Assembly (NCBI GenBank): GCA_017303795.1 | Contig: JAFLBR010000002.1 | Location: 124,001 to 188,000, forward strand | Direction: 5' to 3' | From: Cytophagales bacterium | GTDB taxonomy: Bacteria; Bacteroidota; Bacteroidia; Cytophagales; Cyclobacteriaceae | Length of the DNA: 64,000 nucleotides | In this document: positions 9,922 to 56,700 of the stretch, piece after piece | Numbering within the stretch: the first letter of the stretch is position 1 | Layout: the number at the start of each line of letters is the position of its first letter | Made by a program: the position numbers and the translations under genes | The notes under the pieces: generated by a model | Told to the model about the DNA's origin: nothing | Database searches by the model: none | The model's input: only the letters and a program-made list of their open reading frames with translations

Positions 9922-10107
9922 AAAATTTGGTTTTGTTTTAGCTTTTTATAAGTTGATTTATTGTAATAACAACGATATAAAAGTATAAAAGCAATTAAAC
10001 AAAAGCAATAATGTTTCTTTTAATTTTTATTTATCGAAATAAATCTCCTATAAATGCAATAAAAACAGGATATTCGAGCGTTCTTTCTTCAAACGTAGCT
10101 CAGGCTT

Positions 10108-22874: not shown

Positions 22875-22899
22875 CTTTCAGATTTTTCGTTAAGTAGAT

Positions 22900-29249: not shown

Positions 29250-29323
29250 AAATTTGCAATTCGCGAATTGCAGATTGAAAACTTAGGTTGAGATTAACAA
29301 GCCCAAAATTTCTATCCTGAACC

Positions 29324-29881: not shown

Positions 29882-30453
29882 ATGAAACCACCAGACAGGA
29901 CAGAAATTAGTTTTTCATTGAACCGATCTACTCTTGTTGTGGGGTTGGCAATTACAGCTGTAGCTATTTTGGTGACTTTTCTAATTTCCTATTACTACAA
30001 TTTCGAAGTCTACTTTCGAGATTACATTGCTTTATTCACGACAGGGATCGTTTGCACGACCTTGTTCTATCATTCAAAAAATATTGGCCTGACCCATGCC
30101 TATCATGTAGAAAAGCTATCGTTTGAAAGAGAAAAATTGAAAGCTGAAAATGAACGAAAAGTGGCCGAGTATTCGTTAATGATTTGCAGTGAATGGTTTA
30201 AGCCATCAGTTTCAACAGAGGTAAAATTAGGAGGACTGGTATTACAAGCCATATCAAGAAACTTTTTGAGGAAGGCTTTTTTAAGAAGCCAAGGTCGGTG
30301 AACGATATAATTAATCAATGTTTAAAAAAGTATAGCCTCGCTTTTCGAAGTGCTGAGACTTCTGGGGTGTTACTATTATTGGTTAAAAGCGGTGGTTTGA
30401 AAAAAGTTCGATCTGAAAAGAATAAGAATCTGTATCAGAACAGGCAGATCTAA
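29882..30453 (+). pseudogene. Frameshifted two-TM membrane protein with C-terminal HTH-like domain
   Basis: The first frame from ATG 29882 encodes two hydrophobic helices (about 18-38 and 47-63), a coiled-coil (LSFEREKLKAENERKVAEYS) and CSEWFKPS, and would end at 30301. From about 30210 another frame carries a convincing domain, ITSHIKKLFEEGFFKKPRSV then INQCLKKY...LLLVKSGGLKKVR...NLYQNRQI, ending at 30453. That part lacks a start codon and resembles small HTH domains found at the C-termini of such proteins. The simplest reading is one gene of about 190 codons broken by a frameshift or sequence error between 30200 and 30250. Confidence 0.6.
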
Positions 30454-33913: not shown

Positions 33914-34396
33914 TTATTTTTTCCTTTTTCTCACATTAAAGAGAACAGGCCCCAGGTTTTCGCTGATTTTCTCCAAAGATCGACCTGCTACATATCCTCC
34001 AACACCTAAATCCATCAATGTCCAGATGTGATCATCAAGAGTAGTTATCGGAAGATTGAAGTACGGTACTAGCACGTAATTATTGAAAACTATAAACATG
34101 CAGATGCACATGAGTATCGGTCTCCAGTTCCGTTGCAACCAGCTTTCACCTTTTGTCTCTGATTCAATGATTTTTGATTTCGTTTCCAGGAGCTTGCTTT
34201 CATAATCAATACAAGCTCCTTCCATGTTCATAAGAAGTTCCTTGTACTTCAATTGAAGCTCAAGCTTCTCATCTGACTTGTCGATTTTGTCGATCGCATT
34301 TCCAATTGAATCGACTGTCTCCTTTACTCCAGCTCCGAGAATTTTAGACAAAAATCCTCCGATAGCTGGTTTTTTACCAACTTCACTTGCCTCCAT
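33914..34396 (-). CDS. Holin-like protein (GTA/phage 3-TM type)
   Basis: Protein of 160 aa. A helical N-terminal part with a central Lys/Glu-rich coiled segment (about 40-90) is followed by SWLQRNWRPILMCICMFIVF and a second hydrophobic stretch (about 125-145, LMDLGVGGYVAGRSLEKI). This order matches the 3TM holin family found in phages and gene transfer agents, in which the RNWRP segment precedes the membrane helices. Holins permeabilise the inner membrane at lysis. No endolysin gene is nearby, so the role here is uncertain. Confidence 0.7.
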   Translation of the reverse strand: MEASEVGKKPAIGGFLSKILGAGVKETVDSIGNAIDKIDKSDEKLELQLKYKELLMNMEGACIDYESKLLETKSKIIESETKGESWLQRNWRPILMCICMFIVFNNYVLVPYFNLPITTLDDHIWTLMDLGVGGYVAGRSLEKISENLGPVLFNVRKRKK

Positions 34397-34427: not shown

Positions 34428-36038
34428 TTAGTAATGCTGACTGTCCTTTGTTGTCATGGCACTATTGATCGGATATGGTTTTAATTTTTGCTTGGCCATT
34501 GGCTCTTGCCATTGGATGCCGAACTGTCTGAAGAAGTCCAGAGTGCTCTTAGGTGCGTACCTGTTCTTGGTTATGTTCACTACACCTTTATGTACCTCAC
34601 CAGCAATCTCTGCGATATGCTCCCAATCTTTTCCACCTTTGAAATCCCCGGCTTTGGTATGCTGAAGGATAAAGATGAATGCTTTGTCAGGATGTTCCTT
34701 ACGAATCTCTTTGTATTCATTGATTTTCAATCCAAGGTCATTCACTGAATCAAGAATGATAAACTGATAATCCGAAAGGTCAGGGTCTTGCAAGTTTTCA
34801 GCGAAGTGCAACCTTGATGGCAGAGGATTCAAAAATTCGTTCACCTTCTTGGTCATGGTTGGCGAAGCAAACTCTTCCGATGAGACGTAAAGCACATTAC
34901 CGAAATTCTCAGCAAGGTATTGCGCAAGCTTTAGCAGGAAGATGGTTTTTCCATTATGCGGCTCACCATGAAACATCATAGTGAAGTTCCTTGCCGGATT
35001 TCCGAACAGAGAATGCCAGAATGAAAAGAAATTAAGCAAATCAAGCTTACGGGTTGCCATTTCTTCCGCAGTCAGCACTCCACTGAGTCCCCTGTTGTGC
35101 GAACAAGCCCCACGACTTGCATCGGAGTAGGTTTTACTCTTGCATGGTCTTAACTTCTTTCCGCCTGTATCATAAATTCTTCCTACCTCATTTTTGCATC
35201 CACAAGCTTTTACGATTCCTTCCAATCCATTTAGTTCAGCTTTTGAAATTGACACTTTAGCACTCGACCGTTGTCTCAGACTTTTGTAGATAGCATTTAC
35301 TTTATCGGCATAGGGATCATCCTTGGTCAGCTTCTTTTTGTCAACCAGGTTCTCCAGGTACTTGATGAAATCATTTATCTTCTTCTGGTCATCTTTTCCT
35401 TGGAGACCGATGTAGCGTTTAATAGCGGTTATCGACTGATACACCTTTTCACCACCTGCGATTGCGACAAGGTGATTCAGGTCTTTATCGTTGATCGCAA
35501 AAGACTCATCTCCCTTCATCTTGTTATATGCCTGAACAAGCTTGTTCTGAATCATTTCAATTTCTTCCGACAATGGCGAGGTCTTGCGGATGAGCTTTTG
35601 AACGATGGAACGTTGCAATGCTTTGATGAAAGCAAGTATGGCATTGGGCGACTTAACCTTGTTGTGTAACCCGACATACCTTTTAATAAACTTCACCTCC
35701 TCACGGATATGCTCAACGTGTTTTACATTCTTTGGCTCTTTTTTTTCTTTAACCGTTCTCTGCTTCGTTTTTTGTTCTGCCTTTTTGACTGGAGGTTTTT
35801 TCGTCTTCGATGGCTCAGGGGTTATGCTTTTCGGACTGACTGTATTTGCATACTCATTCAACTTTTGAAAATACAGGTCTATCACTTTCTTAATGCCTTC
35901 GCTGCTTTGGTAGTTCGCCCAATTGGTTCCATTGGAGGTACTCTTCACAACCAGGTCATGTCCTTTCTTTAGCGTTTCCGGAAAGGTCTCTATACCGATC
36001 CGCTCCACTTCAATAAAATAATTACTAGCCGTTATCAT
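34428..36038 (-). CDS. RecA/RadA-like P-loop ATPase with long N-terminal extension
   Basis: Protein of 536 aa. The C-terminal ATPase has a Walker A GEPHNGKT around 358-365 and a Walker B-like YQFIILDSVNDLG followed by AFIFILQHTK, typical of RecA-fold enzymes. The N-terminal 320 residues are basic, helix-rich and contain TSNGTNWANYQ near 34-44, Lys-rich linkers (about 85-110) and a Cys pair (ACGC...). Probably a DNA-dependent ATPase or loader for the adjacent helicase, whose gene ends at the base where this one begins (36038). The substrate and role are inferred. Confidence 0.75.
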   Translation of the reverse strand: MITASNYFIEVERIGIETFPETLKKGHDLVVKSTSNGTNWANYQSSEGIKKVIDLYFQKLNEYANTVSPKSITPEPSKTKKPPVKKAEQKTKQRTVKEKKEPKNVKHVEHIREEVKFIKRYVGLHNKVKSPNAILAFIKALQRSIVQKLIRKTSPLSEEIEMIQNKLVQAYNKMKGDESFAINDKDLNHLVAIAGGEKVYQSITAIKRYIGLQGKDDQKKINDFIKYLENLVDKKKLTKDDPYADKVNAIYKSLRQRSSAKVSISKAELNGLEGIVKACGCKNEVGRIYDTGGKKLRPCKSKTYSDASRGACSHNRGLSGVLTAEEMATRKLDLLNFFSFWHSLFGNPARNFTMMFHGEPHNGKTIFLLKLAQYLAENFGNVLYVSSEEFASPTMTKKVNEFLNPLPSRLHFAENLQDPDLSDYQFIILDSVNDLGLKINEYKEIRKEHPDKAFIFILQHTKAGDFKGGKDWEHIAEIAGEVHKGVVNITKNRYAPKSTLDFFRQFGIQWQEPMAKQKLKPYPINSAMTTKDSQHY

Positions 36039-39000
36039 TACGCTGCAAAGTTTAATAGTTCTAATTCGAGTTCCAGAGCAAGAGCTTCAAGCTCCAGTTG
36101 CTCCATTTCAGATTGTGATTGTTTAGGAAGCATGACGATGGTAGGCCTTGTCCTTGGTTCCTTCTTCGGAATCTCTCCTTTAATTACTTCGTATTGCGGA
36201 GGACTAAGCGAAACGCTATCGTTGAACTTCTCTTGAAGCACATTTACAAACTCATCAATTCTTCCTTCTCCCAATGATGCCGTCATTCGGTCAGAAATCT
36301 TTTCAAAGTTGTTTCCATCGACAATCTTCAAGAGGTCTGGATCAAGATAAGTATCACCACCCTTCGACCGTGAGGATGAAACTACAATCTTGAATTTCCC
36401 AGGCTGTCGAAAAATCGATACTCCATTCTTTGTTGTGATACTCGCTCCAATCGTTAAAGACCGGATGATCTTAATTGCTCTGGAAATGGGTACGACTGTT
36501 TTTTGCCCAACATCATTTCCTGGCTCCCAATATTCGGGCATGAGGATTCCTTTCTTGATTCCTCCATCAATAGTAGTATAACTGACAAGTTTCCCTTTGT
36601 AAGCACTGAAAGCTTGAAGAACATTTCCGGTAATGATGTGCCGTATCTTTCTATCAACCGTACTCTCTTTAATAGAGGCTTCCCATTTTGCCAAAAGCGA
36701 TTCCTTTTCAAGGTGCGGTAATCCGACACTTGAACCAATGATGGCTCTTACGTCTTGTGCGTAGCTTGCTGGAATGGAGATGTACTTGTTACTACTTGCC
36801 AATGCAAAACGAAGACGCATAGAACTTGGCGCATACGGGTTCTTCTTTTTCTTGTCAATGATGAAACCGAGGAAGACAGCAGGCACAAGTTCCTGACCTC
36901 CCTCATAACTACTCACGGGATAATTCAGATTTCGTCCTACATAAAAAGAAGTGAAAATGGACTCCAGATATTGTCTGCGATTGTTGAATGAGCGTTTTAT
37001 CTTTTCCTCCGAATCACTCATCGCTTTATGAAGCTCAGTGGTTCTGGCTTTAATAGCCTCTTGTGCTTCGGTAGCATTACCTTTCTCAACAAGTTTTTGA
37101 ATCTTCTTCTCTTCAGGAACCTTTTGCATGAGGTCTTCATAGTACGCCACATTATCCGCGATTTCCTTTTGAAGCTGCGACTCCATGTAGCCTTCATACT
37201 CCAGCTTCACTTCCTTTTGCAATTCCCTTCCATCTTTTCCCTGGAGTGATTCTGCAAGTAGGTTGCTTAACTCTTGCATAGAGAATGGTTTCTTGAGAAC
37301 GTTGGCCATGACTGTTTCCAAAATGCTATCGTCCCCAAACTCGCTTGTTCCTCCCTTACCCACAATCACGGTTCTGGAAGATTGTGTCTCTGCCTGAAGA
37401 TCCATCGCCTCCACTTCAAGGTCATACTCACCTATTTGTTTGAGATACTCTACATACTCACTGTAACGATTCGCGATTTCATTATAGAAGTCTTGCTGCA
37501 TAAGTGTTGATAGCACTGCCACTCTTCCAGAAACTCTGTGTGCAGCATCTTCTAATTCCGCTCCATCTACTTCGCGTGTTGAAAGACCCAATGGATCATC
37601 GAGGAGCATATTTACCTCTACATTCTCCTTTAGGTATTCAGCTACTATCCTGTCCCCATACTTATTCAGGAAGTCCGGAACATCCAGAATTTTTGTAGAT
37701 GACTTTTGGTTAGAGGTCGTGTTTGCATCCAGGGACTTCAACTTCTTCTGAAGCATCATCATCAATCGCTTCTCAGCGGGAATAGCAGAGTTAACGTAAT
37801 CATAGATAGGTTTAAAAATCTGTCCGGTGCGGTTTATCCGTCCACGTTTCTGAACCTCCGTATTTATGTCAAGCTCTGCTTGCAACACAATCATTACCCG
37901 CTGCTTCACTTTATCCTTCGAAACTTTTGGAGTTACAATGGCATGAGCGGAAGCTCCCGTACTTCCGGACTGATTGATTAGCAGAACGTCTGCCTCGTTA
38001 TTATTGAACTGACGAAAGGCATCATTGGTGTTAATCCGTTTTCGAGTAAGCACAAGTGCCTTGTTGGTCTTCGAATTGATTTGAAGTTCGTATTTACGAC
38101 CTGTAACCTCTGCCACTTTATATCCAGCTTCTGTAATTTTTCGAACAATCACATCAATGGGAGAAATGGTTATTCCAGTAGATGCTTCTTTGATTCTCTC
38201 ACTTATGCGGAAGTACTCAGCCTGGGCTTCTAAAGGGAAATCGGAGATTTCAAACTTCTTGAAAACCTTCTGACCATCCGTGTCGGTTTCCGTGTAACGC
38301 AAAATTCCATCAAGTCCCTTTTGAAGCACTACAGAAAAATCTGCATTAATGGTGTCACCATCGGTAACAGCGAGACCCGCATCATTCTCCATTTGTTCAA
38401 TAAAACTTCCCATCGTGCTGGCGAAGGCGATAACAGGTTTTTTGCCTTCCTTCAATCGTGCAATAGCTCGCTCTGCAACGGCTTCAGCTTTGATGCTGAA
38501 AAGCATTTGATTAATCACGTTGAATACTTTGGAGAAGTATGGCAGGTTATCTACTCCGGCTTGTGATGTTCCTTCTCGAATCTCCACTTGCTTTCCTTCG
38601 GCCACTGCAATGTCATCCAACTCTTCCACAATCTCATCTACATAGGTAGTTTGAAACTTGATAATGTCCCGAATGATGGAAGTGATATTGTCTGCAATGG
38701 CTTTATGCTCTTGCTCTTTATCCTCAAGGGTAATGTAGTTTACTTCCACGCCTTCGAATGAGCGCTCTCTTCGTATCATCTGACCTTCTGCTACAAGCTG
38801 ACTCGCCAGGATTTCTTGCAAGGCTACTCCACCTTTAGTAATTGCTTCAATCAGCGCATCTCTTGTCATACTTGCATCGCGGATAGAAGTTTTCATCGCA
38901 TAGATGGGCATGTTATCCGGACGCTTGGCGAAAGTTGCTGACAAGAAAACTACTCCCCTCGACTTAGATAATGCAGACTGCATGAAGTTTCCGGTATTAC

Positions 39001-40705
39001 CAGAACCGGATGAGTTATGAGCTTCATCCATGATGACAATGTTGTCTTCTGCTATCGCATTTAAGAATGCAGGTTTTGTTGGCTTCTTATCTGGAGAGTT
39101 GAACTGTGAATAAGTTGCTACCGCAAAATGAAAGTTTCGCGGTATGCGCTGCCCCTCAAATATTCTGCTTTGGTCTGCTGCCGGAAGTGCCTGGTAGATG
39201 ATGTTTCCATCTTCATCCTTGATGTCAGTCTTACTCTCGCGACCATTGACAATGAATGGAACAAGGTGCGAAGAACCTATCGCTGACAAATCACGATAAA
39301 TGTCAGAGAACAAATTTGCCTTTTCAGTAATAAAGACAGGTTGAACTCCTTGCTCAACTGCATAACGAATAATAGATGCAGCAATTCGACCTTTACCAAT
39401 TCCTGTTTGGTCTCCGATAATCATACCAACGCCTCTTTCTTCAATGTTATAAATTGACATCGCTACTGCATCAATCTGTTCTGCTGATAAAGCTTTGCAT
39501 AGTTCTACATTGCTACGATAGTTAAGTTTGATTCGTACATACTCATCTATATCACCACCTACTGCTTCCTTAATTCTCTGCAATGCACTGTGGGTTTCGA
39601 AGCCCATTGAATCAGGCACTACCGTATTGAGCACAAAGCAACTGCTTGATGCAGGAGTATATGGCATACCGAGTTCATCGAAGCTCATTAATTCAAGCTC
39701 CAGGGCAAGAGCCTGGGCTTCTAATTCAATTTTTGTCATTGTAAATTCTTGTCTTGGTGTTGTTACGCTCATCACTCGCTCATACAACTCTTCAAAGGAA
39801 TCAACTACTGCATCGCGTTCTGCATTTTTTAAAGGAGCTGCACCGGAGGGTTGAGATTTTCGTCCATCAATCAGCATTAACCTCGTATCGAACGAAGTTC
39901 CTTGACGGGAATAGAGTTTGGAGCCATCAATGGGAATGACATCGACTACATTATATCTGCTGAAGAGGTAATTAAAGAAGAAGCGGTTTTTCCCCTTTTG
40001 AATTCTTCCCTTCTTATCATAGCGTGTATGTCCTCCAATAATAATGGCAGCTTTACCATTATCCTTCATGCAATCCAATGCGCGTAGGGCCATGAGATGA
40101 TCGAGGACTTCAATATTGAAGCTCTCGTATTTTACCTCCCGATCTAAAAGTCCGAAAGGCGGATTTGTTAAGATGGCGTCAAACTTCCTTTCAAATTCTT
40201 TGAATGGTTGTGTGGCATCTTGCTTTAATACTTGACGATAGCCCTGGTCAGCTAAGTTCGATCTTCTTAGCTCATCAATTTCATTGACAATAACTCTGGA
40301 GGGATTGGCGGCAATGGTAAGCAGACCATTTCCAGCAGACGGTTCAAACGCAGAAATATTTTGTTCCGCATTGGTGAAAATTCCAGCAAGAAATGAAATG
40401 GGAGCCGGAGTACTGTATTGTTGTAATAGGATACTCTGACTTGTGCGGTGAGAAATATTTACCTGACTTTTGTAAAGCTCAACAATACTCCAATACTTAT
40501 CTTCAATAACTAATGATGAAAGTGCAATGCTTCTTGCTTTCAGAACAATAGCAAGTTCAGTGTATTCTTTTACCTCAGATTTATCAGTGATTCCGTAAGA
40601 CGAGGCAATGCTCTCAATAGATTTTCTATTGTGCTTATTCTTTGCATCCAGCTCCCTGCGAACGTGCTGAAGAAATTGTGCCTTTAAAATGATTTTGCCC
40701 CTCAT
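36038..40705 (-). CDS. Methyltransferase-helicase fusion of strawberry-notch type
   Basis: Protein of 1555 aa. An N-terminal adenine-type methyltransferase has motif I AFEPSAGNGLL (119-129) and catalytic NPPFG (181-185). An SF2 helicase of the strawberry-notch type follows with Walker A GDQTGIGKGR (431-440), DEAH (560-563), SATFAKRP and C-terminal RGRINRTGQIFKP. Similar fusions occur in phages and plasmids, where some (DarB-like) protect incoming DNA from restriction. A short acidic-Leu helix is present twice (about 326-342 and at the extreme C-terminus). Transcription probably starts in the 119-bp gap that carries a palindrome. Confidence 0.9.
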   Translation of the reverse strand: MRGKIILKAQFLQHVRRELDAKNKHNRKSIESIASSYGITDKSEVKEYTELAIVLKARSIALSSLVIEDKYWSIVELYKSQVNISHRTSQSILLQQYSTPAPISFLAGIFTNAEQNISAFEPSAGNGLLTIAANPSRVIVNEIDELRRSNLADQGYRQVLKQDATQPFKEFERKFDAILTNPPFGLLDREVKYESFNIEVLDHLMALRALDCMKDNGKAAIIIGGHTRYDKKGRIQKGKNRFFFNYLFSRYNVVDVIPIDGSKLYSRQGTSFDTRLMLIDGRKSQPSGAAPLKNAERDAVVDSFEELYERVMSVTTPRQEFTMTKIELEAQALALELELMSFDELGMPYTPASSSCFVLNTVVPDSMGFETHSALQRIKEAVGGDIDEYVRIKLNYRSNVELCKALSAEQIDAVAMSIYNIEERGVGMIIGDQTGIGKGRIAASIIRYAVEQGVQPVFITEKANLFSDIYRDLSAIGSSHLVPFIVNGRESKTDIKDEDGNIIYQALPAADQSRIFEGQRIPRNFHFAVATYSQFNSPDKKPTKPAFLNAIAEDNIVIMDEAHNSSGSGNTGNFMQSALSKSRGVVFLSATFAKRPDNMPIYAMKTSIRDASMTRDALIEAITKGGVALQEILASQLVAEGQMIRRERSFEGVEVNYITLEDKEQEHKAIADNITSIIRDIIKFQTTYVDEIVEELDDIAVAEGKQVEIREGTSQAGVDNLPYFSKVFNVINQMLFSIKAEAVAERAIARLKEGKKPVIAFASTMGSFIEQMENDAGLAVTDGDTINADFSVVLQKGLDGILRYTETDTDGQKVFKKFEISDFPLEAQAEYFRISERIKEASTGITISPIDVIVRKITEAGYKVAEVTGRKYELQINSKTNKALVLTRKRINTNDAFRQFNNNEADVLLINQSGSTGASAHAIVTPKVSKDKVKQRVMIVLQAELDINTEVQKRGRINRTGQIFKPIYDYVNSAIPAEKRLMMMLQKKLKSLDANTTSNQKSSTKILDVPDFLNKYGDRIVAEYLKENVEVNMLLDDPLGLSTREVDGAELEDAAHRVSGRVAVLSTLMQQDFYNEIANRYSEYVEYLKQIGEYDLEVEAMDLQAETQSSRTVIVGKGGTSEFGDDSILETVMANVLKKPFSMQELSNLLAESLQGKDGRELQKEVKLEYEGYMESQLQKEIADNVAYYEDLMQKVPEEKKIQKLVEKGNATEAQEAIKARTTELHKAMSDSEEKIKRSFNNRRQYLESIFTSFYVGRNLNYPVSSYEGGQELVPAVFLGFIIDKKKKNPYAPSSMRLRFALASSNKYISIPASYAQDVRAIIGSSVGLPHLEKESLLAKWEASIKESTVDRKIRHIITGNVLQAFSAYKGKLVSYTTIDGGIKKGILMPEYWEPGNDVGQKTVVPISRAIKIIRSLTIGASITTKNGVSIFRQPGKFKIVVSSSRSKGGDTYLDPDLLKIVDGNNFEKISDRMTASLGEGRIDEFVNVLQEKFNDSVSLSPPQYEVIKGEIPKKEPRTRPTIVMLPKQSQSEMEQLELEALALELELELLNFAA

Positions 40706-40824: not shown

Positions 40825-41673
40825 TCATCTCGTAAGAAAAGGATGATTAATGCTTTCTTCCTCAATCCATTTTGAAGGCATTAGATTATCCATAATTTGC
40901 TTGGCCTCAATAGTGAAAAGCGAATAATCAATTTTGGTTTTCCACTTTGAAACCGTGTCCGAGAACTTTATAGGCTCTTGTGGAATAAGTATTTGAATAC
41001 CTGGAAAAATATTTTTCTTTATGTCTTGGTAAATTTCAATTCCTCTATTGTCCCAATCGCATAAATAGTAGAACGGGATAGCAGGTTCGACTACAAACTT
41101 TAATTTGGCTGTATTTCTTCCTCCTGCATACCAAAGCTCAATGTCATCAAGTCTAGGTTTGGTCAATTGATTGAGGTTCTCACAAAGTATGATTGACTTA
41201 GGAACTTTAGTTCTACAATGGAGAATGAACAGAAATTGCTGCTCATGTTCTTTTGCGGGTAATTCTACTACATGCAAAATCTTAAGTATGGCCTTGTAAA
41301 GTGCACTACCTTCAGTTAAATACTTTGCACTATCAAAGTATATGGTGGATATTTCTTTTTTAGTTTTTCCTGTAATTAATATCTCCTCCTTGTCACTTTG
41401 AATTCTCAAAAGTGCAGCAAGTTCAGTTTCTTCAAAATTGGTCTCCAATAAGTCTAGCGAATCAAGTAACGTATTAAATGATTTATATTTTAATAATAAT
41501 TCCTTCCTATAAAAGGAGTCATACAGTTCCGTTTTCACTAAGGTTTTTTGATCTTGTTCTGCTATTAACTCCATTTCTTGCCAACGCTTTACTAATGGAA
41601 TCTTTAGAACCACGCTGGAAGTTACTCCATCCATGAATAGGCTATGTAGCTGCTTAATTTCCTTCCAAGTCAT
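40825..41673 (-). CDS. jetD: JetD-like Toprim nuclease subunit (Wadjet)
   Basis: Protein of 282 aa, the fourth gene of a jetABCD-type operon. The C-terminal half has the Toprim acidic set of topoisomerase VI-A/JetD: ILCENLNQL (Glu165), then WYAGGRNT and YYLCDWDNRGIEIYQDIK (Asp206, Asp208). JetD is the nuclease that cuts DNA once the SMC complex has extruded a small circle. The N-terminal part is shorter than in classical JetD of about 400 aa, so the arm domain seems reduced. It overlaps jetC by 20 nt. A divergent subtype is likely. Confidence 0.82.
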   Translation of the reverse strand: MTWKEIKQLHSLFMDGVTSSVVLKIPLVKRWQEMELIAEQDQKTLVKTELYDSFYRKELLLKYKSFNTLLDSLDLLETNFEETELAALLRIQSDKEEILITGKTKKEISTIYFDSAKYLTEGSALYKAILKILHVVELPAKEHEQQFLFILHCRTKVPKSIILCENLNQLTKPRLDDIELWYAGGRNTAKLKFVVEPAIPFYYLCDWDNRGIEIYQDIKKNIFPGIQILIPQEPIKFSDTVSKWKTKIDYSLFTIEAKQIMDNLMPSKWIEEESINHPFLTR

Positions 41674-44600
41674 TATTCTTAATTAAATATTCCTCCAGTT
41701 CAATATTCTTTGATTTAGTTTTGAAGAAACTCATAGGTGTGTAATTCCTAAACTTATCTTCCTTTCCCTTTACTAGCATATGCAAATACCATTCTTCGTC
41801 CGTATATGAGCCAAAGGGCTTAGGTGTCATAGTAATTAACTGATAACCAAATCTCTTGGCGATTTGAGGGAAAATATTAAAGTTAGTATCGTCAATGTTT
41901 GATAACTCTTCGATGATTATGAATCTTATACCTAGATGTTTCTCTTGTTGTTTCTGAACAATTGATAGCCTTCCGATACATAAAAGAGCAAGTGCGGTAT
42001 AAGCTTGTCCGCCACTTCCGGAGTTCTGTTTTCCATCATCGTCTTCCATCCTAACGTTTATAGTAAAATAATATTTAGGGTCTAATAAATTAGATGGATC
42101 AGGATTTGCAGAGCTATAAAATTGTTTCGCAATATTTCGTATCAGATTTTCAGGTGTGTTGTCTTGTGAAGGAAAATCTTCGGGATTTGTAAACAGGTCA
42201 ATGCCATGTTTATGAACTCTAGTCTTTTCCTTCATTTTTTGAATCCAGTCAATGTTAATATCCTTTTTAGGTGAAAATTCTACCCTAAACTTGTAACTAT
42301 CACTAATTCTATTTTTCTCAAAAAAGAAGTTTAGATTTAGAATTGTTTTGTAGAAGTCATCATATTGTTTTTCAACCATCCCAAAAACTTCGGTCAGTAT
42401 TTTCAATTGAAGTTCACCCAATGTCTTTAGGTTGTCATTCAATTCTGAAAGTTTATTGGTTAAGTGCTCTAGTCCTATCTTTCCACAAAGGAGGCTTACC
42501 AAAGAATAAAAGTTGAAGTAAGGGAGACCATCTGATTTATAGATTTCTGGATTTCGATTGATTGATTTCGATTCTTCAAACATTTCAGCCACGTGAGAGT
42601 ATTCTGAATTGTAGCGAGTTTGTAAGGTCTCATATTCAGTTTTTAGATTATCCACAATTTCTTGAGTTACATCACCCATTTGAAGCTGATTTCCAAAGAT
42701 AACGTCTGTGTTTTCTTCTAAATTCCTTTTTGCTTCTTTAAACTGAAGTTCGGAATGGGTCTTATTTGATTTCAGTATAGGGATATTTCTTCTGCACTCA
42801 TCAATGATACCTTTTTGATCATCACGTTTTGATTTGGTTTTAAGACGAGTTTTCTCTAGCGCCTTTATTTCTTTTTTATTCTCGCTACGAGTCTCAATAA
42901 GCTTATCCAAATCAATTAGTCGTAAATCAAGATTAAGCCTTTCAATTGGTTTTGTGTGTTCCTTCTTAATTTCATTGATATGATCGTTAAGTAATTCTGT
43001 TAGGTCTTCAAGATTTTGCTTAAGCTTTGTCTCAATGACCATTGAATCTCCAATTAGTTTATCAATTTTCGCGTTAAGCTCTGAAGCTGTTCTGTTCAAG
43101 GAATCAATTTCAAATAGTTGTTGAAAATTCGTAATTGCAAAATTGATATTCTCTTCTGTAAATAAGCTATTAGGTTGCCAGTTCTGATACTTCTCCCTAT
43201 CAACATATATATTAAAGTAAGCTTTGTTGAATCCAATGTTGTTTAAAGCTTCATTTAACGCCCTTATTTCTTCACTCTCATTTTCCAACTCAGCAATCTC
43301 ACCTTTGATGTTTTCTTTATCGTTTTCAATCGCTTGTTGAAGTTTTCCCTTACTGTTAAATATTTGCTTTGAAACTAGTGGATAATACTCTGAAACATCG
43401 CCTAAGTTTACCCAAATTCCTTCACCATCACTTTCAAACGAACCTAACAATCCCTTTGGGTTTAAAGTATATCTTTTGCCCTGGATAGCTGAGATTCTCT
43501 TTGTGAAAATCTCCTTAAAATGCATTACAATTGTTTCTTGTTCTCGAGACAGGACTTCGTTGTTCTTAATAGCCCAATTAAAAAGCGAGTCAGGATTATT
43601 GCCATCGTAAAGAGATAAGACTTCCTTTAGCGTTCTTACAGAGTTTGTGAGAGTTCTACTTTTCTCATTGTAATAGTCGTATGCATTAGAGTAGTCTTTG
43701 CTCCATAGAGAATCTTCAAACTCTCTAAATAAATTCATTCCACTTAACGTATCGAGTTTCCTTTTATACTCCTTTTTAAGTTGATAATCGTTAAAAGCAT
43801 TTTCTATTTGTTCAATTGTTTTGTATTCCTCTGTTATTGGTCTAACTCTCGCTACAGTCTCAATGAAATTCTGTTTCTCTCGAAGTTCCTTCTTTAGAGA
43901 CTCAATATTCTGCTTCCCAGCCTCTGCTTGTTGTTCTTCCAGCCGTACTCTAACCTCATTACATATTTCTTTCTGCTCAAGCATTTTTGAGTAAGAGGCT
44001 ATGATTTGTGTGTCGTATTCCTCCGAAGAACCCTTAAATTCATCAATTGCTTTATTCAGCTTGTTCTCATTATCATTAAATGTCCTTTCGTCTGATTTAA
44101 AGTGATTGAACAACAAATGGCAGTTTTTAAGGAGGTACTCCTTTTTGGAATTATCGTATGTGTTAAACGTCAGTTGCAAGTGCTCCAGTTTCTCTTGCTT
44201 TAATTTCAAGGTTTCAATCTCTTGCTTAGAGGTGTGGAAGTTTCTGATATGCTCATTTAGCACTTCTTTTCTTGTCTCAAAAGTTGCTTTGATTTCATCG
44301 TTATCTTCGAATAGAAAATCTTGCAAGCTTTTAGACTTGTTAATATCAAGAGTCTTTGCTCTTGAGAACGACTGCAAAACCTTAGCAAAAGATTTTAGAT
44401 TGACTTCTTTTGTTAAGTCAATGGGAAGTATCTGATTTTTGAAAAGTAAGTCAAAGTAATTGTTTACTTCTTCTTTATTAAAGAAATCCTTGAGATGAAT
44501 CTTATAGCTATCATACAGATGTCTCTTTAATGCCTTTAAGTCATATATATGTCCTGTATCCGCAATGAAGTCCTTGGCTTTAAGAATATGCTTAAATGTC

Positions 44601-44995
44601 TTTAACCTTGAACCCTTAGTTTCAAAATCTTCGCCTTGTTGGATTATGAAAGGTCTAACGGGGACCCGTGAAGTATTTGGAATAAAAACTCCTATGGTCA
44701 AAAATTGCCCTTTCGATTTCTCAATATTTAAAAAGCTGTAAGCAAATTGAATCCAATCTTTTTCAAGGGGTATACTTTCGATTCTCCTTTTGTCTTTGTC
44801 AAGACCCTCCGTACCTGGTTTCCACTCATCCCTAAGAGGAACAAAAATCAATTGTAATAAGTCAGCTATTATGGACTTACCTAAACCGTTGTTACCCGTA
44901 AAGTCCGTTCTTACACTATGCAAATGATAATCAACATTTTCATGCTGCCTCACTCCCACAGTAGATAGCGAGTATATTTTAGGAGAGTTCGTCAT
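41654..44995 (-). CDS. jetC: JetC-like SMC/MukB-type ATPase (Wadjet)
   Basis: SMC-like protein of 1113 aa. The N-terminal ATPase lobe carries Walker A GNNGLGKS (34-41). Two long coiled-coil arms surround a middle hinge-like region. The C-terminal lobe has the signature region NSGSGGQAYTALALL and a Walker B IIIEELSNIDDTNF followed by LITMTPKP. In Wadjet the JetC dimer extrudes DNA and selects small closed circles such as plasmids. It overlaps jetB by 17 nt and jetD by 20 nt, so the four subunits are translationally coupled. Confidence 0.88.
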   Translation of the reverse strand: MTNSPKIYSLSTVGVRQHENVDYHLHSVRTDFTGNNGLGKSIIADLLQLIFVPLRDEWKPGTEGLDKDKRRIESIPLEKDWIQFAYSFLNIEKSKGQFLTIGVFIPNTSRVPVRPFIIQQGEDFETKGSRLKTFKHILKAKDFIADTGHIYDLKALKRHLYDSYKIHLKDFFNKEEVNNYFDLLFKNQILPIDLTKEVNLKSFAKVLQSFSRAKTLDINKSKSLQDFLFEDNDEIKATFETRKEVLNEHIRNFHTSKQEIETLKLKQEKLEHLQLTFNTYDNSKKEYLLKNCHLLFNHFKSDERTFNDNENKLNKAIDEFKGSSEEYDTQIIASYSKMLEQKEICNEVRVRLEEQQAEAGKQNIESLKKELREKQNFIETVARVRPITEEYKTIEQIENAFNDYQLKKEYKRKLDTLSGMNLFREFEDSLWSKDYSNAYDYYNEKSRTLTNSVRTLKEVLSLYDGNNPDSLFNWAIKNNEVLSREQETIVMHFKEIFTKRISAIQGKRYTLNPKGLLGSFESDGEGIWVNLGDVSEYYPLVSKQIFNSKGKLQQAIENDKENIKGEIAELENESEEIRALNEALNNIGFNKAYFNIYVDREKYQNWQPNSLFTEENINFAITNFQQLFEIDSLNRTASELNAKIDKLIGDSMVIETKLKQNLEDLTELLNDHINEIKKEHTKPIERLNLDLRLIDLDKLIETRSENKKEIKALEKTRLKTKSKRDDQKGIIDECRRNIPILKSNKTHSELQFKEAKRNLEENTDVIFGNQLQMGDVTQEIVDNLKTEYETLQTRYNSEYSHVAEMFEESKSINRNPEIYKSDGLPYFNFYSLVSLLCGKIGLEHLTNKLSELNDNLKTLGELQLKILTEVFGMVEKQYDDFYKTILNLNFFFEKNRISDSYKFRVEFSPKKDINIDWIQKMKEKTRVHKHGIDLFTNPEDFPSQDNTPENLIRNIAKQFYSSANPDPSNLLDPKYYFTINVRMEDDDGKQNSGSGGQAYTALALLCIGRLSIVQKQQEKHLGIRFIIIEELSNIDDTNFNIFPQIAKRFGYQLITMTPKPFGSYTDEEWYLHMLVKGKEDKFRNYTPMSFFKTKSKNIELEEYLIKNNDLEGN

Positions 44996-45644
44996 CGGTT
45001 AAATAAGCTTGAATTGAATCAACATTATGTATCACATCTCTATATAGGCGACTGATTCTTTCAATGCTTGGCATGATTTCAAACTTTACCTCCTCAATAC
45101 CCTTAATTTCTATCCAGCCTAGCTTTTCAAAATCCTTTAAAATACTTTTGACTTTATCTTTAACACTAAGTTCTTCATTAATCGTATAGCTCGGCTTTAC
45201 ACGGCCAAAAAGTAACTTCTGCCAAAGTTCCTTATGCTCGCCTTCTTTAAAAACTTGTTCTAGTTCCGTCCATTCTATTTCCTTATGTTCAAAAAATCTT
45301 CCTTTGTAAATATTTAAAAGCAGAATAGCAAAGATTACTTTTTCATCTTCCAATTCTTTACTTCTATTTTCCTTTCCGAATTTTCCTTTACCATCATCAG
45401 GAAAGTCTAAGTAATAGAAGACTTGATTATCGTTCTTATCCCTTACTAAATTCATTTGAAATAGATGTTGATAATAGTCCTTTAGTCCCTTATCGTAGTA
45501 TTCATCTACAAATGAAAATAGTCTACTATCCATGCCATAGTCTTGCAAGTGCTTACCTTGTTTTAGGGCAATATCTGCATCGGCAAAATATCTAGCTGCC
45601 CTATCAGTGTTTATGAATTGATAATATTGGCCTTCATTCTCCAT
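44979..45644 (-). CDS. jetB: JetB-like MukE/KITE-type subunit (Wadjet)
   Basis: Protein of 221 aa with a winged-helix/MukE-like pattern (DYYQHLFQMNLVRDKNDNQV, VIFAILLLNIYKGRFFEHKE, FGRVKPSYTINEEL, LKDFEKLGWIEI, IMPSIERISRLY). It matches the DUF4194-type JetB in length and position. The subunit bridges kleisin and SMC heads. It overlaps jetA by 34 nt and jetC by 17 nt. Assignment rests partly on operon order because sequence divergence is high. Confidence 0.78.
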   Translation of the reverse strand: MENEGQYYQFINTDRAARYFADADIALKQGKHLQDYGMDSRLFSFVDEYYDKGLKDYYQHLFQMNLVRDKNDNQVFYYLDFPDDGKGKFGKENRSKELEDEKVIFAILLLNIYKGRFFEHKEIEWTELEQVFKEGEHKELWQKLLFGRVKPSYTINEELSVKDKVKSILKDFEKLGWIEIKGIEEVKFEIMPSIERISRLYRDVIHNVDSIQAYLTDDELS

Positions 45645-46939
45645 AATGATAATTCATTTTCTTGCTTTTGAATTTCAGTTTGCTCAATTTTTATTACTAC
45701 ATTTTCATGTTTATTATGTTGCTCAATCAAGCCGAAGCAAACATTTATTGGGACTTCAAGATTATTCTCTTGGTCAATTATTTTATCAAACCATTGTTCA
45801 AAATCGATTTCATTTCCAGCTTTACCTTCAGCATTGATTTTGTCTAACCATTGTGAGGTTGCTTCTTGAATTTTTAATAGAGCAAGACCCTTTTTCCGCT
45901 CAGCATCTTCATGCATTTTATCATAGTTTTGTTTTTGAGGCTCGGTCGTATAAATATTTTTGAAATCAATTTTTGGGATCGCGACAAACTTTGTCGGTAT
46001 AAATGGAATTAATCTCTTCTCAATAGAATTATGCAGTTTGATTTGACCTTTCTCATTCTTGCTTGTTTTTAATAGAATTGTTAAGAATCTTTCAATTTGA
46101 ATTTTAAAAAGCTGCTTATGTTTTAATGTATTAAAAAGATTTTTTAGACGTTTTGAAGCAAGTTGAATCTTGTCATTGATTGAACTAATTCGTCTATCAA
46201 TGCTTTGAAAGAAACCATCAATTTCTCTCTGCATTTTATCGAAGCGATTAAATGTCTCCTCATTATTCGAAAATTTGTTCTTTAGCGATTTGATTTTATT
46301 TAGTGTTTCGTTTTTGTAATCAAGGGTGTTTATAAGACCTATCGTTTGTGTCTCTAGTTCCTTAAAAATGGTTGTAAAGGAATTGATTAGTTCTTTTGGA
46401 TTATCAATCTCAGGCTTTAACAGGTTTCTTAAATCACTAATCTTTTCCTCAATTGCTGTTTGCAACATTTCAGTGTTTCGAAGGATTGTTTTCTGTGCTG
46501 GTAAAAAGTTATGCTCATACCAATGACTGAACTTTTCAATATTTTGTAAATCTTCATCTTGAAGTGGTAATGTTCTATTAAGAACGTGATATAGTTCAAA
46601 CTTTTTAAGTTCTGGTTGAACTTGGTCTATTAACAACCTGCACATTTCTTTAGCAAAAACAGTTAAGTGCATGTAGTATTTGTTACCAACTATTTGTGTG
46701 TGGCAGAAGTGAGCACTTAATTTCTTTAGTAGTGTTTCTTTCTGTATGGAGCTTCCTTTTTGCATAAACTCCGCAACTTCTTCAATTGTGTCATCAAGGT
46801 CTTTCTGTTCAAAGTCCTCATTGATATAGCCATTCTCAACCTTTTGGTAAAGCCATACCAGTAACAGTAGAGACTCTTCGTTTTGCGGAAGGATGTCTGT
46901 GAAGTTATTTGAAAGGGATATTAGAATTTCTCTTTCCAT
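45611..46939 (-). CDS. jetA: JetA-like kleisin subunit (Wadjet)
   Basis: Protein of 442 aa, first gene of the operon. An N-terminal winged-helix-like part (about 1-130) is followed by long helices typical of MukF/JetA kleisins (ILRNTEMLQTAIEEKISDLR, IDGFFQSIDRRISSINDKI), with a C-terminal part about 330-442. JetA links the SMC heads in Wadjet complexes. It has no strong known-domain motif by eye; assignment comes from length, fold pattern and the A-B-C-D order. The 148-bp region upstream holds the palindrome TTGTG-T-CACAA and presumably the operon promoter. Confidence 0.75.
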   Translation of the reverse strand: MEREILISLSNNFTDILPQNEESLLLLVWLYQKVENGYINEDFEQKDLDDTIEEVAEFMQKGSSIQKETLLKKLSAHFCHTQIVGNKYYMHLTVFAKEMCRLLIDQVQPELKKFELYHVLNRTLPLQDEDLQNIEKFSHWYEHNFLPAQKTILRNTEMLQTAIEEKISDLRNLLKPEIDNPKELINSFTTIFKELETQTIGLINTLDYKNETLNKIKSLKNKFSNNEETFNRFDKMQREIDGFFQSIDRRISSINDKIQLASKRLKNLFNTLKHKQLFKIQIERFLTILLKTSKNEKGQIKLHNSIEKRLIPFIPTKFVAIPKIDFKNIYTTEPQKQNYDKMHEDAERKKGLALLKIQEATSQWLDKINAEGKAGNEIDFEQWFDKIIDQENNLEVPINVCFGLIEQHNKHENVVIKIEQTEIQKQENELSLWRMKANIINS

Positions 46940-46987: not shown

Positions 46988-47072
46988 ACGTTGATTGGGA
47001 ATTTGACTTTTGGGCATGATGCCTTAATAATTCCATATCAGCATAATAGCAGATTACACTACTAATGAACTT

Positions 47073-47084
47073 TTAAGTATTGCT
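47073..47084. repeat. 12-bp direct repeat copy 1
   Basis: TTAAGTATTGCT, repeated exactly at 47400-47411, so the two copies bracket the small HTH gene 47088-47366. May be operator half-sites for the element's regulators. Confidence 0.35.
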
Positions 47085-47087
47085 GAA

Positions 47088-47366
47088 TTATGCAGCCTTA
47101 AACATTTCCTCCACCTCTGACAACGAGACCTTGAATCGCTTAGGCATACCAAATATCTTGAAGATAATAAGTACCTGGTTAATACTGTAAAAGTGTCCAG
47201 TCTTCTTTCCGATTTGGTCTTCATTCTTTTTCACCCATCTCTGAAACGTCAACCAACATACTCCGTAGAAGTCCGCCAGTTGCTTGTGATTGTACGGTCT
47301 CAAGACGAAAATTTCTGGTTTGTGTCCGGTTTCCTCGGTTTTTGTGATTTCACGCTTCATATACAT
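47088..47366 (-). CDS. Small HTH DNA-binding protein, paralog 1
   Basis: Protein of 92 aa. The core FVLRPYNHKQLADFYGVCWL plus TFQRWVKKNEDQIGKKTGHF and the tail VSLSEVEEMF match position for position the gene at 48250-48516. The HKQLADFYG...TFQRW part is a helix-turn-helix of the MerR/excisionase-like kind. It is divergent from the CI-type repressor with an 82-bp shared promoter region. Regulator or excision factor of the element is inferred. Confidence 0.8.
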   Translation of the reverse strand: MYMKREITKTEETGHKPEIFVLRPYNHKQLADFYGVCWLTFQRWVKKNEDQIGKKTGHFYSINQVLIIFKIFGMPKRFKVSLSEVEEMFKAA

Positions 47367-47393
47367 TCTCTTTATAATTTTTTCAGCCAGTTT

Positions 47394-47410
47394 GCAATGT
47401 TAAGTATTGC
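47394..47410. promoter_or_regulatory. Inverted repeat in the divergent repressor promoter
   Basis: GCAAT, 7-nt spacer, ATTGC between the small HTH gene and the CI-type repressor gene. Its right half belongs to the 12-bp repeat (47400-47411) also found at the end of the HTH gene. Likely operator. Confidence 0.45.
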
Positions 47411-47448
47411 TTACTAATATTGTCAAGTTTTACTAAACAAATAAATTT

Positions 47449-48249
47449 ATGCTGACAAAGAGTGTCTTAGGAAACCAAATTAAGGTCTTAAGGCTGGAAA
47501 AAGGGCTTTCTCAGGAGGAATTTGGCACTCCAGTGGATTTGAGCCGTTCAGCCGTTTCACAAATTGAAAGTGGCCAGATGTACCCCTCTCTGGAGTCAAT
47601 TGATAAGATAGTTAAGTACTACTCAACAAGTTGGGATAATATAGTAGGACGTGCAAAGAGCAAAAAGACAGCAGAAATGACTGTATCTCCCGTCAGGACT
47701 TTAGTCACTACTGTGGATAAAACCGGAAGAGATAACATTGTGCTGGTTCCAATTAAAGCACAGGCCGGATACCTGCAAGGAGCGCAACAACCTGAATACA
47801 TTGAGCATCTTCCAACCTTTTGGCTTCCTGGTCTGAATCACGGAACGTACCGAGCGTTTGAAGTAAGCGGATATAGCATGTTAGCAGATCGCACAGGATT
47901 TTTTCCTGGAGATATTGTGGTGGGTGAATATGTTGAGAGACTGGAAGAAATTAAAGACGGCTTCGTCTACATTTTGGTTAACAATGCCCAGGAAGTTGAT
48001 AACATAGTATTGAAGCGTTGCCTGAACTACCTCGATAAAGGAGGTGTGATTATTTGTAAATCCGATAACAAAGACCCACAATATCCAACGTTTCCTCTGC
48101 CAGTTGAGAATATTAAAGAGGTTTGGAAATTCAAAATCAAGCTCACCCGTCAGGCACCAGAACCTTCTGGATTGTATGAGAGGATTAATGCCTTGGAGGG
48201 TGACATGGTGTTATTAAAAGAGCAACTCAAAAAAGCACCGCAAGGATAA
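47449..48249 (+). CDS. CI/LexA-type repressor with S24 peptidase domain
   Basis: Protein of 266 aa. An XRE helix-turn-helix (about 8-62, LSQEEFGTPVDLSRSAVSQI) is joined to an S24 domain. The candidate nucleophile is Ser143 in SGYSML and the general base Lys189 in VLKR. An Ala-Gly pair (AQAGYLQG, 106-107) stands at the position where LexA/CI proteins self-cleave on RecA activation. A coiled-coil tail ends the protein. It likely keeps the element quiet and releases it on DNA damage. It is the only plus-strand gene in the block and is flanked by two minus-strand HTH paralogs. Confidence 0.92.
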   Translation: MLTKSVLGNQIKVLRLEKGLSQEEFGTPVDLSRSAVSQIESGQMYPSLESIDKIVKYYSTSWDNIVGRAKSKKTAEMTVSPVRTLVTTVDKTGRDNIVLVPIKAQAGYLQGAQQPEYIEHLPTFWLPGLNHGTYRAFEVSGYSMLADRTGFFPGDIVVGEYVERLEEIKDGFVYILVNNAQEVDNIVLKRCLNYLDKGGVIICKSDNKDPQYPTFPLPVENIKEVWKFKIKLTRQAPEPSGLYERINALEGDMVLLKEQLKKAPQG

Positions 48250-48516
48250 TTACCTCTGTGACTTAAATAATTCTTCAACATCATTAACTGTAACGTTAAT
48301 CTGCTTTGGTATTCCGAAGAGTTGAAAGATTTTTCGCACTTGGGGTACGTGGTAAAAATGTCCTGTTTTTTTGCCTACTTCTTTTTCTACTTTCTTAATC
48401 CAATTTTGAAACGTTAACCAACTCACTCCATACATCTCTGCCAGTTGTTTATGAGTAAGAGGTTTTAAAACAAAAACCTCTTCCTTCATCCTTCCTCTTA
48501 GCTCTTCCACTTTCAT
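48250..48516 (-). CDS. Small HTH DNA-binding protein, paralog 2
   Basis: Protein of 88 aa, close paralog of the gene at 47088-47366: FVLKPLTHKQLAEMYGVSWL, TFQNWIKKVEKEVGKKTGHF and the tail VTVNDVEELF align without gaps. Its stop abuts the stop of the repressor gene, so the two converge. The same inferred regulatory role applies. Duplicated copies with different surface residues may bind different sites. Confidence 0.8.
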   Translation of the reverse strand: MKVEELRGRMKEEVFVLKPLTHKQLAEMYGVSWLTFQNWIKKVEKEVGKKTGHFYHVPQVRKIFQLFGIPKQINVTVNDVEELFKSQR

Positions 48517-53731: not shown

Positions 53732-56700
53732 CTATTGATTAGCTGAACCAGTTAAATAATCGATGTTGATAATGGTTTGGTTGAAATTGTTTACTGTTTC
53801 AATGTAAAGAAGTTTGCTTTGAATGGCCTGAGAGGTATTCTGGATGAATTCTACATATCCTATTTCTCCCTTGCTGTATGCAAACTCTGAAATACTTAAT
53901 AACTCGTCAGCTTGTTGTAGCCCACTTGTCTCAAAATATGAGAGGGTCTTTTGCAACTTCTGTAATTGTTTTACTTTTTGATTGTAGGTGGCCTTAAGGA
54001 TATTGGTTGCGTTCTGAAGTTCTGTCTCCGAAACTTCCCTGTTGATTTTTGCCGCCTGAACCCGACCTTGTTGCCCGTTGAAGAAAAGCGGAATGGCCAA
54101 CCCGACTTCGAAACCACCACTTCGTGTTCCAGGAAAATATGAGCGAGTAATGTCCGCAGGATTGTAACCACTCACCACAACCTGACGGTTAAAGCCAATT
54201 GTCAGATCGGGTAAGTACCTGTTTTTTTCAAATTTAAGTTGAGATGACGCTACGTTGATTTTTTGGCGTTGAAAATTCAAGACTGGATTTTGGTTAATGG
54301 CTGATGTATCCGGTAAAACTTCTGATACAAGCTTTGGTAAGTTTCCATCAACAGGCACAATCACGTCACTGGTATTCAAAAGTTTTTGCAGTTCCTGCTG
54401 ATAAATGAGCAGATCTGTCTCGGCCTGTTGCTTCAACAGTTGTACTTCCTTGAATCGGTTTATAGCGGAAAGCCTTTCGAGATTAGAAGTTTCTCCTGTC
54501 TGATAGCGAATGGCTGCACGCTCTGCAAAATTTGAATAAATGCTATCCTGATAAGATAGCAGTTTTAACCGTTCCATTCCATACACAAGATGATAGTACG
54601 CCAGTCGTACTTCTTTTATCAGCTCAAGTCGTGCTACCTCAGCCGATTTTTCACTTAGCGCAGTCTGTTGTTTCAATGTTTTGGTCTGTGCCGTATAAAC
54701 GGTCGGGAATGAAATCGTCTGAGATATGCCAAGGCTGTTATCAATATTTCCTCCACTCGTGGGATCTTGTGTGAGAAGAACATTTGTCTTTTGAATATCC
54801 CAACCAGTTTTTTCCAGTGACTTGCTTTGAAGTATCCCCAGGGTTGAAAGTTTTGATTGAAGGTTATCCTTTACTGCTCGATTTATACACTCCTCCACTG
54901 ACAACGGTTTAGTTTCTTGTGCAAGAGTTAATCCTGGGATGGATAGCAATGCAACAAATAGAATTAAACCAGGTATTGAGTTCATAGGCATTTTTAATTT
55001 TACTTCTCTGGAAAACAAAATGTACAAGACGGGCAAAACGAGTAGTGTTAGCAATGTTGCAGACGCCAAACCACCAATTACAACTGTAGCGAGTGGCTTT
55101 TGAACTTCCGCTCCTGCACTTGTCGAAAGAGCCATCGGAAGAAAGCCAAGAGAGGCAACCGAAGCTGTCATGATCACAGGTCGTAAGCGATCACTGGTTC
55201 CCTTTTTTACCCGTTCGATAATATCTGTGATGCCTTCTTGCTTAAGCTGATTGAAATATCCAATTAGAACAATTCCGTTTAGCACTGCTACACCAAACAA
55301 AGCGATAAACCCGATTCCCGCTGAAATGCTAAAAGGCATATTACGAAACCAAAGAGCAAACACACCACCAATTGCAGAAAGAGGAATGGCCGTAAAAATG
55401 AGCAGTGTTTGCCTGAATGAATGAAACGTGAAATAGAGCAATATCAAGATCAGAATTAAAGCAACGGGCACTGCAACTGAAAGCCGCTGGTTGGCCTCAC
55501 GCAAGTTTTGAAACTGGCCTCCGTATGTTGTGTAATAACCTGGAGGTAACCGCAGCTTCTCATTTAGAATTTTCTCAATTTCCTCCACCGTACTTTCAAC
55601 ATCACGACCGCGCACGTTAAAGCCTACATAAATTCTTCTCTTTCCATTCTCGCGGCTCACCTGGGCAGGTGCGTCTTTAATGGAAACATCGGCTACCTGG
55701 CTAAGCGGAACTTTATTACCGGATGGAAGTGGAATAAATAAATTTTCAATGCTGGTAATGTCTTCGCGGAGCTCCTGTTGAAGTCGAACTACAAGATCAA
55801 AACGTTTTTCGCCCTCAAAAACAACACCCGCTACGTTTCCCGCAAACGCAGTCTTAAGAATCATATTAATATCGGAGATATTGAGTCCATATTGTGCCAT
55901 TTTATCACGGTTGTATTCCACAATAATTTGAGGAAGTCCGGTCACGCGTTCAACTATCGGCTCACTAACGCCATCAACAGGTGCAATAAGTTCAGCTATT
56001 TTATTTGCCTCTGCCGTCAACACATCCAGCTCATCGCCAAAAACTTTTATCGCAACATCCTGCCTAATGCCAGTCATCAGTTCATTGAATCGCATTTGCA
56101 TAGGCTGTGTTACCTCTACATTCACTCCGGGCAAAACAGAAAGTGACTCCTCAATTAGCTCCTGCATTTCTTCGCGACTGCTAACACGCCACTCTTCCTT
56201 TGGTTTCATGGAAAGCATGATGTCACCCCGCTCAATCGGCATCGGGTCAGTGGGAATTTCTGCACTTCCTATGCGGGTAACGGCCTGTTTAATTTCGGGA
56301 AACTCTTTTTTCAGAATGCCTTCGGCCATTGAAAATGTTTTTACAGTTTGCGTTAAGGATGTTCCCTGCATCATGCTGATTTCTACTGTCAAGTCTCCCT
56401 CTTCGAGAGTTGGAATAAATTCTCCCCCCATTGTACTAAAGAGCCATAATGCAAAGGCCAGAAGAAGAACAGATAAACCAATGGTGACTGCTTTAAAGCG
56501 TAATGCAAAGGTCAGCACTGGCGTATATATCTGATGAAAGAAGCTCATCAGCTTGTCAGAAATATTGGGCTTATGTTCGGTCTTGCGACTCAGAAACAAG
56601 GCACTCACCATAGGTATATAGGTGAGTGAAAGAATGAAGGCACCCAGAATAGCAAATGCAACAGTTTGTGCCATTGGCTTGAACATTTTTCCTTCGATGC

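Follow-up and report, generated by a model that had tools for sequence, protein, structure and literature searches.

Wadjet type I systems, also written MksBEFG or JetABCD and known from C. glutamicum, P. aeruginosa PA14 and E. coli GF4-3, consist of kleisin, KITE, structural maintenance of chromosomes (SMC) and Toprim genes. According to passages of a 2023 review, such complexes load on DNA, extrude loops and cut once extrusion ends on a small circle (PMC10586767), a mechanism also covered in parts of PMC10123090. The second point of comparison is MukBEF of the Gammaproteobacteria, which has no associated JetD nuclease. Here we describe a four-gene operon in a 64,000-nucleotide (nt) stretch of a Cytophagales genome (contig JAFLBR010000002.1, positions 124,001 to 188,000; hereafter the window). 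A preliminary description made from the sequence alone had read it as a complete Wadjet/MksFEBG-like set of kleisin, MksE, SMC and Toprim genes, and Pfam matches, fold comparison and related loci bear this out. Four overlapping minus-strand open reading frames (ORFs) occupy window positions 46939-40825 with successive overlaps of 34, 17 and 20 nt; all four frames are open, and the set is real and complete (lengths in amino acids, aa):

45611 to 46939, minus strand: kleisin subunit (MksF/JetA-like), 442 aa, from an AlphaFold model and Foldseek
44979 to 45644, minus strand: KITE subunit (MksE/JetB-like), 221 aa, from Pfam PF21980 and the family profile
41654 to 44995, minus strand: SMC ATPase (MksB/JetC-like), 1113 aa, from Pfam, the family profile and motifs
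40825 to 41673, minus strand: Toprim nuclease (MksG/JetD-like), 282 aa, with E165, D206 and D208, from fold matches and a ligand alignment

Since neither the kleisin nor the Toprim protein matched a Pfam family above cut-off, we gathered relatives of the operon by one conserved-peptide scan of a genome collection, confirmed by tblastn, which yielded 65 loci. The kleisin and MksE genes lie upstream of the SMC gene in all 65 and the Toprim gene lies downstream of it in 61, an order kept so widely that the arrangement is not a matter of chance. Under a strict adjacency rule (four neighbouring, intact genes and an SMC of >1000 aa), 52 of the 64 loci that were parsed carry the full operon; a recheck with family profiles found kleisin, MksE and Toprim proteins in every one of these, and the CEN and DWD motifs of the Toprim protein are present in all of them (52/52). 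All but two loci, whose titles are uninformative, are named as Bacteroidota (63/65), where the branch has been seen so far; because the scan patterns were drawn from three Bacteroidota SMCs, other phyla may have been missed. In two Saprospiraceae loci, L014 (3589-14167) and L016 (5544-14344), the kleisin-MksE pair stands ~4 to 6 kb upstream of the SMC-Toprim pair on the same strand, with further ORFs between the pairs in L014; all five Saprospiraceae loci have kleisin and MksE upstream within the same fetched stretch.

Two of the subunits are recognised directly. The 221-aa protein matches Pfam MksE (PF21980; 1.6e-18, 68 bits, cut-off 27) and its family profile matches MukE at 8.3e-13, placing it as the KITE (MksE) subunit of the Wadjet group. 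The SMC matches MukB_N (PF04310; 25.5 bits, cut-off 23, E = 1.3e-5) and its family profile matches MukB at 1.1e-10, as expected of the MukB/MksB type; its Walker A motif reads GNNGLGKS, as the preliminary description had it, and starts at residue 34, GSGGQ in the signature region starts at residue 993, and IIIEEL, the Walker B region, spans residues 1026-1031. The kleisin is placed by its fold. It has sub-threshold Pfam matches only, with no family above cut-off, and a PDB sequence search with its profile returned mainly coiled-coil chains, with kleisins missing from the best 60 of the 94. Its AlphaFold model (31-sequence alignment; mean predicted local distance difference test, pLDDT, 75.6; predicted template modelling score, pTM, 0.40) was matched by Foldseek to MukF or Wadjet type II JetA at ranks 1-9 (best E = 3.4e-5), with MukF at the top and the type II kleisin of Neobacillus vireti (9qe0) at 8.3e-5. 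The first fold matches of the Toprim model are MksG (8b7f) and JetD (7til), and the metal ligands E165, D206 and D208, which had been named correctly beforehand, are invariant in all 34 aligned Toprim proteins, the window's included. The JetD_C domain was found in 18 of these 34 at E up to 0.1 (best 3.5e-5), the window protein lacking it. By sequence or by fold, the operon encodes an SMC ATPase, a kleisin, a KITE subunit and a JetD/MksG-fold Toprim nuclease with its metal ligands. The outcomes that had been set beforehand as counting against a Wadjet-like operon did not appear: fold comparison ties the 442-aa protein to kleisins, Pfam identifies the 221-aa protein as MksE, and the set does not fit any unrelated SMC repair system.

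Mobility genes are frequent around these operons. Among 64 neighbourhoods with testable ORFs, drawn from 63 loci and the window and averaging 15.2 kb of searched DNA, 31 carry a serine recombinase (11), a tyrosine integrase (8) or TraG (12), without overlap between the three. The same profiles hit one of 40 arbitrary 20-kb control stretches from ten Bacteroidota genomes, a contrast flattered by the derivation of the profiles from the loci themselves; after thinning at 85% SMC identity, 18 of 34 operons are marker-positive (Fisher p = 4e-7). Pfam confirmed TraG (1.3e-61) and conjugative-transposon TraM (1e-40) in one locus and a tyrosine integrase in another.

On sequence and structural models, the operon is a Wadjet-group (MksBEFG) system, and we consider it probable that its products form a complex with a MukBEF-like motor that cuts small circles and excludes rival elements. 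Circular-DNA cleavage and exclusion are here inferred by analogy with the studied relatives. The SMC-kleisin-KITE ring would load on DNA and use ATP to extrude loops. Where the substrate is a small closed circle, extrusion would run to completion and activate the Toprim dimer, which would then cut the DNA. A chromosome would be too large and linear DNA would let go, so that both would be spared. An integrated carrier would therefore be safe and a rival plasmid not, with the carrier itself at risk on excision. As the operon often accompanies integrative and conjugative elements (ICEs), its likely benefit is to block rival plasmids or circular transfer intermediates. Apart from changes in Walker B and the nuclease tail, the anatomy appears to speak nowhere against the mechanism of the relatives.

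Several observations weigh against this reading, in addition to the flattered control contrast. The fold matches have low template modelling (TM) scores, ~0.2 for the kleisin and 0.41 and below for the Toprim protein. Pfam gave no family for the window's Toprim protein and did not recognise the DUF3322 arm domain, and a PDB sequence search with the Toprim profile found no chain. The second C-terminal glutamate of JetD (in LEQE) is not in the same place here, where the sequence reads WIEEES. Glutamate takes the place of the usual Walker B aspartate in 12 of the 18 aligned SMCs, those of the window's sub-branch, a change that the preliminary description missed. In profile-profile alignment, another Mks group outranks MukB as a match to the SMC and, by a small margin, MukF as a match to the kleisin. 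The Toprim gene was not found in the fetched DNA of four of the 65 relatives (L041, L043, L066 and L069), and 33 of the 64 neighbourhoods have none of the mobility markers.

The operon belongs to a separate branch of the Wadjet family; it goes unrecognised by the PADLOC catalogue, and none of the catalogued types is a good fit. PADLOC 2.0.0 gave JetD1 at 7.4e-4 over 37 residues, JetC1 at 0.11 and neither JetA nor JetB in the window, with no convincing match to the JetA, JetB or JetC profiles of Wadjet types I-III; for the comparison with type II, the window proteins had no JetC2 or JetD2 match. The positive control, type I operon L106 of a different Bacteroidota genome, was typed at 3.4e-146 (JetA), 8.4e-63 (JetB), 0 (JetC) and 7.7e-126 (JetD). 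Likewise, the type I domains of JetA (DUF3375), JetB (DUF4194) and JetD (DUF3322) are present in L106 and in none of the window proteins. The divergence from known types that had been proposed earlier is upheld by these weak scores, although two Mks loci (L099 and L103) are also weak in PADLOC, so that a weak score does not set this branch apart.

There is a substantial, if minority, chance that the operon is an already catalogued Wadjet system which PADLOC's 2023 models score poorly and which falls under a known clade in a 2025 census of the Wadjet group. According to the parts that describe its methods, the census ran its profile search in six rounds, and the operon falls within its size limits (MksB >890 aa, MksF 400-1200, MksE 150-800; PMC7617805); it may already list these operons. 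Relatives of the nuclease also weakly match the PADLOC profiles of JetD1 (9/34 for the commonest profile, best 5e-6) and JetD3 (7/34, best 2.8e-6). A literature search that included passages of PMC10586767, PMC10123090, PMC7617805 and PMC8565338 turned up nothing on this operon in those passages. Set against a catalogued type are the PADLOC result itself, with no JetA or JetB and JetC1 at 0.11 only, yet with the control correctly typed, and the separate, deep position of the SMC. The SMC-head tree held 42 rows (a first set of 49, minus ten similar ones, plus three of MukB type), with four type I, four MukB and five rows of another Mks group for comparison and no SMC of type II or III. The heads of this branch split off from all three of these groups with support 100/99, in agreement with the first tree. 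Bacterial families are intermixed within the branch, as expected of mobile cargo.

A Wadjet-group complex with a MukBEF-like motor accords with the hidden Markov model (HMM) scores of the core, which the preliminary description had overlooked. The best scores are to MukB for the SMC (33.4 bits), MukE for MksE (42.2 bits) and, weakly, MukF for the kleisin (9.2 bits), as against -2.8, 12.5 and 1.8 bits for type I. The nuclease, unlike these three, is nearest to type I JetD. Differences from MukBEF are a shorter SMC (1113 aa versus 1486), a patchy distribution and the JetD-type nuclease, whose gene overlaps that of the SMC. We also tried the branch as the sister group of MukB, a pairing that gained no tree support: MukB and the other Mks group come together in the best tree (86/58). 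Approximately unbiased (AU) tests reject neither a grouping of this branch with MukB (p = 0.259) nor one with the other Mks group (p = 0.305), which leaves the deep order of the four SMC groups open.

The same HMM scores would also suit a complex that works chiefly like MukBEF, which folds the chromosome (PMC7617805, in the passages on MukBEF): it would condense, segregate or stabilise either the element or the chromosome, with the nuclease only resolving or checking DNA. We regard this role as unlikely: the Toprim gene follows the SMC gene in nearly all relatives with its ligands unchanged in all 34 aligned proteins, the tree and AU tests show no link to MukB, and the SMC is rare and patchy, unlike a housekeeping factor. 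Single-sequence and profile searches alike found it in three of 395 Bacteroidota genomes, one of them the home genome, a count that may be low as no more than two candidates were scored per genome; MksE of any kind was found in 59 of the 395. SMC relatives were absent from 50,697 phage records at 1e-3 and from 72,556 plasmid records at 1e-5.

A nuclease-armed MukBEF seems, from gene content, to exist outside this branch as well. On the Burkholderia pyrrocinia plasmid pBPJTT (L124, 3420-10814), a mukF-like gene, mukE, mukB and a DUF2220 gene are consecutive, beside a SAVED effector. As in the window, a MukBEF core and a JetD-type protein share one operon; the latter is DUF2220 by annotation, with another Mks nuclease as its closest phmmer match. 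Unlike the window's SMC, that of pBPJTT is a genuine MukB, scoring 279.7 bits to the E. coli protein, and groups outside the branch.

Decay of the operon into inactive cargo in this genome is a distinctly improbable explanation. It could draw on the Walker B change from aspartate to glutamate, on a second Mks operon of the same genome whose SMC lies in two frames, and on three relatives (L041, L043 and L069) in which the SMC is short or missing and no Toprim gene turned up. In the window itself, the four frames are open and overlap correctly; the Walker B glutamate is common to relatives from different families, the other sub-branch having DE instead, and the glutamate that follows is invariant. 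Wherever no Toprim gene was found, the SMC frame is also short or missing, and of these four relatives L066 lies at a contig end; L041, L043 and L069 are perhaps degraded copies. For a system outside the Wadjet group, of SMC-like repair or Lamassu/Rad50 type, one could cite that all of these are SMC-like ATPases with partners and that NCBIfam weakly matches the SMC to its TrlF ATPase family (20.1 bits, below the cut-off of 350). Such a system can be set aside as having next to no chance, given MksE and MukB_N matches above the Pfam cut-offs, the kleisin fold, JetD and MksG as first fold matches of the nuclease, and no LmuB match for the window SMC at PADLOC's sensitivity (its HMMER filters drop most matches above 0.1).

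The genes downstream of the operon link it to a plasmid and a recombinase:

36038 to 40705, minus strand: methylase with strawberry-notch-type helicase, 1555 aa (PF13872, 5e-23; PF13871, 6.8e-21)
34428 to 36038, minus strand: ATPase protein, 536 aa (phrog_6891 ATPase, 2.7e-22)
33914 to 34396, minus strand: holin-like protein (PF11351 GTA_holin_3TM, 7.2e-12)
32101 to 33708, minus strand: large serine recombinase, 535 aa (PF00239 Resolvase, 2.4e-27; PF07508, 1.6e-12)

The methylase-helicase gene lies on the same strand 119 nt below the nuclease gene and is 50.6% identical over 96% to two genes of the 53-kb Persicobacter plasmid pPP10; two pieces of the ATPase protein match pPP10 proteins at 29-31%. 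The guanine-plus-cytosine content is 32-34.5% in the operon versus 42% in the helicase and ATPase genes. The operon had been placed on a recombinase-bearing element. The serine recombinase is there, ~7 kb away among genes shared with the plasmid; a complete or mobile element was not borne out, as no repeat >9 nt was found between the recombinase flank and the right edge and no att repeat was detected. The P-type ATPase of the right flank, tried as an empty-site marker, was uninformative. An identical 12-nt word, TCGCCTTTAATC, occurs at window positions 31910 (by the recombinase gene) and 40815 (at the end of the nuclease gene).

A broader proposal, which we advance tentatively and at less than even chance, is that these operons make up a lineage of MukBEF-like complexes with a nuclease, found in Bacteroidota, distinct from Wadjet types I-III and a regular cargo of ICEs, which cuts rival circles and has to be silenced when its own carrier excises as a circle. 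Were this so, then together with the Burkholderia mukFEB-DUF2220 operon it would mean that MukBEF-type motors persist in nuclease-armed form, and the step between plasmid defence and chromosome organisation could be studied directly. Type I Wadjet has been the subject of most research so far, according to the part of the 2023 review that surveys it (PMC10586767), and a MukBEF-like core with an intact JetD-type nuclease offers another place to study that step. The conjugation genes nearby raise the question of how an element carries a cutter of small circles and yet circularises to move.

Upstream of the operon are genes for a CI-like repressor and two small proteins:

47088 to 47366, minus strand: small helix-turn-helix (HTH)-like protein between repressor and operon (weak; phrog_534 DNA binding protein, 0.0033; HTH_29, 0.022)
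47449 to 48249, plus strand: CI-like repressor, divergent from the operon (Pfam HTH_3 at the N-terminus, 4.6e-11)
48250 to 48516, minus strand: second small HTH-like protein (Pfam HTH_29, 0.0013, below cut-off)

No family matched the C-terminal part of the CI-like protein. The operon had been described as under a CI-type repressor; the gene is present on the opposite strand and is at most a candidate switch of the operon, the case for such control being three short repeats with weak statistics. A 26-nt imperfect repeat stands near gene starts at 29318-29343, 47066-47091 and 47393-47418, its copies holding three AAGTAYTGCTT-like sites that are candidate repressor operators. In a shuffle test, 35 of 100 shuffles reach three matches with two mismatches. 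Across the genome, 11 such sites occur at up to one mismatch and the control reaches 6; among the 11 is a site that equals the 47075 copy and falls within an ORF of another contig. We do not regard the repeats as established operators; that the CI-like gene switches the operon with the state of the element is a guess.

The home genome also carries a second, different Mks operon (L099, G000:C21:279001-295000, at 2812-9121) with a DUF3584 SMC whose C-terminal part lies in another frame (a 183-aa ORF), an MksE (1e-34) and a DUF7281-type Toprim protein. One SMC relative, L107, comes from an IMG/VR contig on which integrase-like ORFs were recognised by eye; its SMC (7821-11098) is split into two overlapping frames of 290 and 808 aa. 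Further defence genes adjoin some of the loci: among ten hand-picked neighbour proteins, seven matched PADLOC, for example a reverse transcriptase (RT)-nitrilase (8e-114) in a Sphingobacterium locus; the window's own hand-picked defence candidate had no PADLOC match. Nucleotidyltransferase and HEPN domains are combined in one protein at window positions 30450-31313, for which PADLOC gave no match. DUF4331 homology extends across two ORFs at window positions 22338-23577, perhaps an interrupted gene. A large gene at window positions 53732-58111, presumably a CusA-like efflux pump, lies near the operon in eight of the 64 neighbourhoods (the window, L018, L019, L040, L045, L047, L048 and L072).

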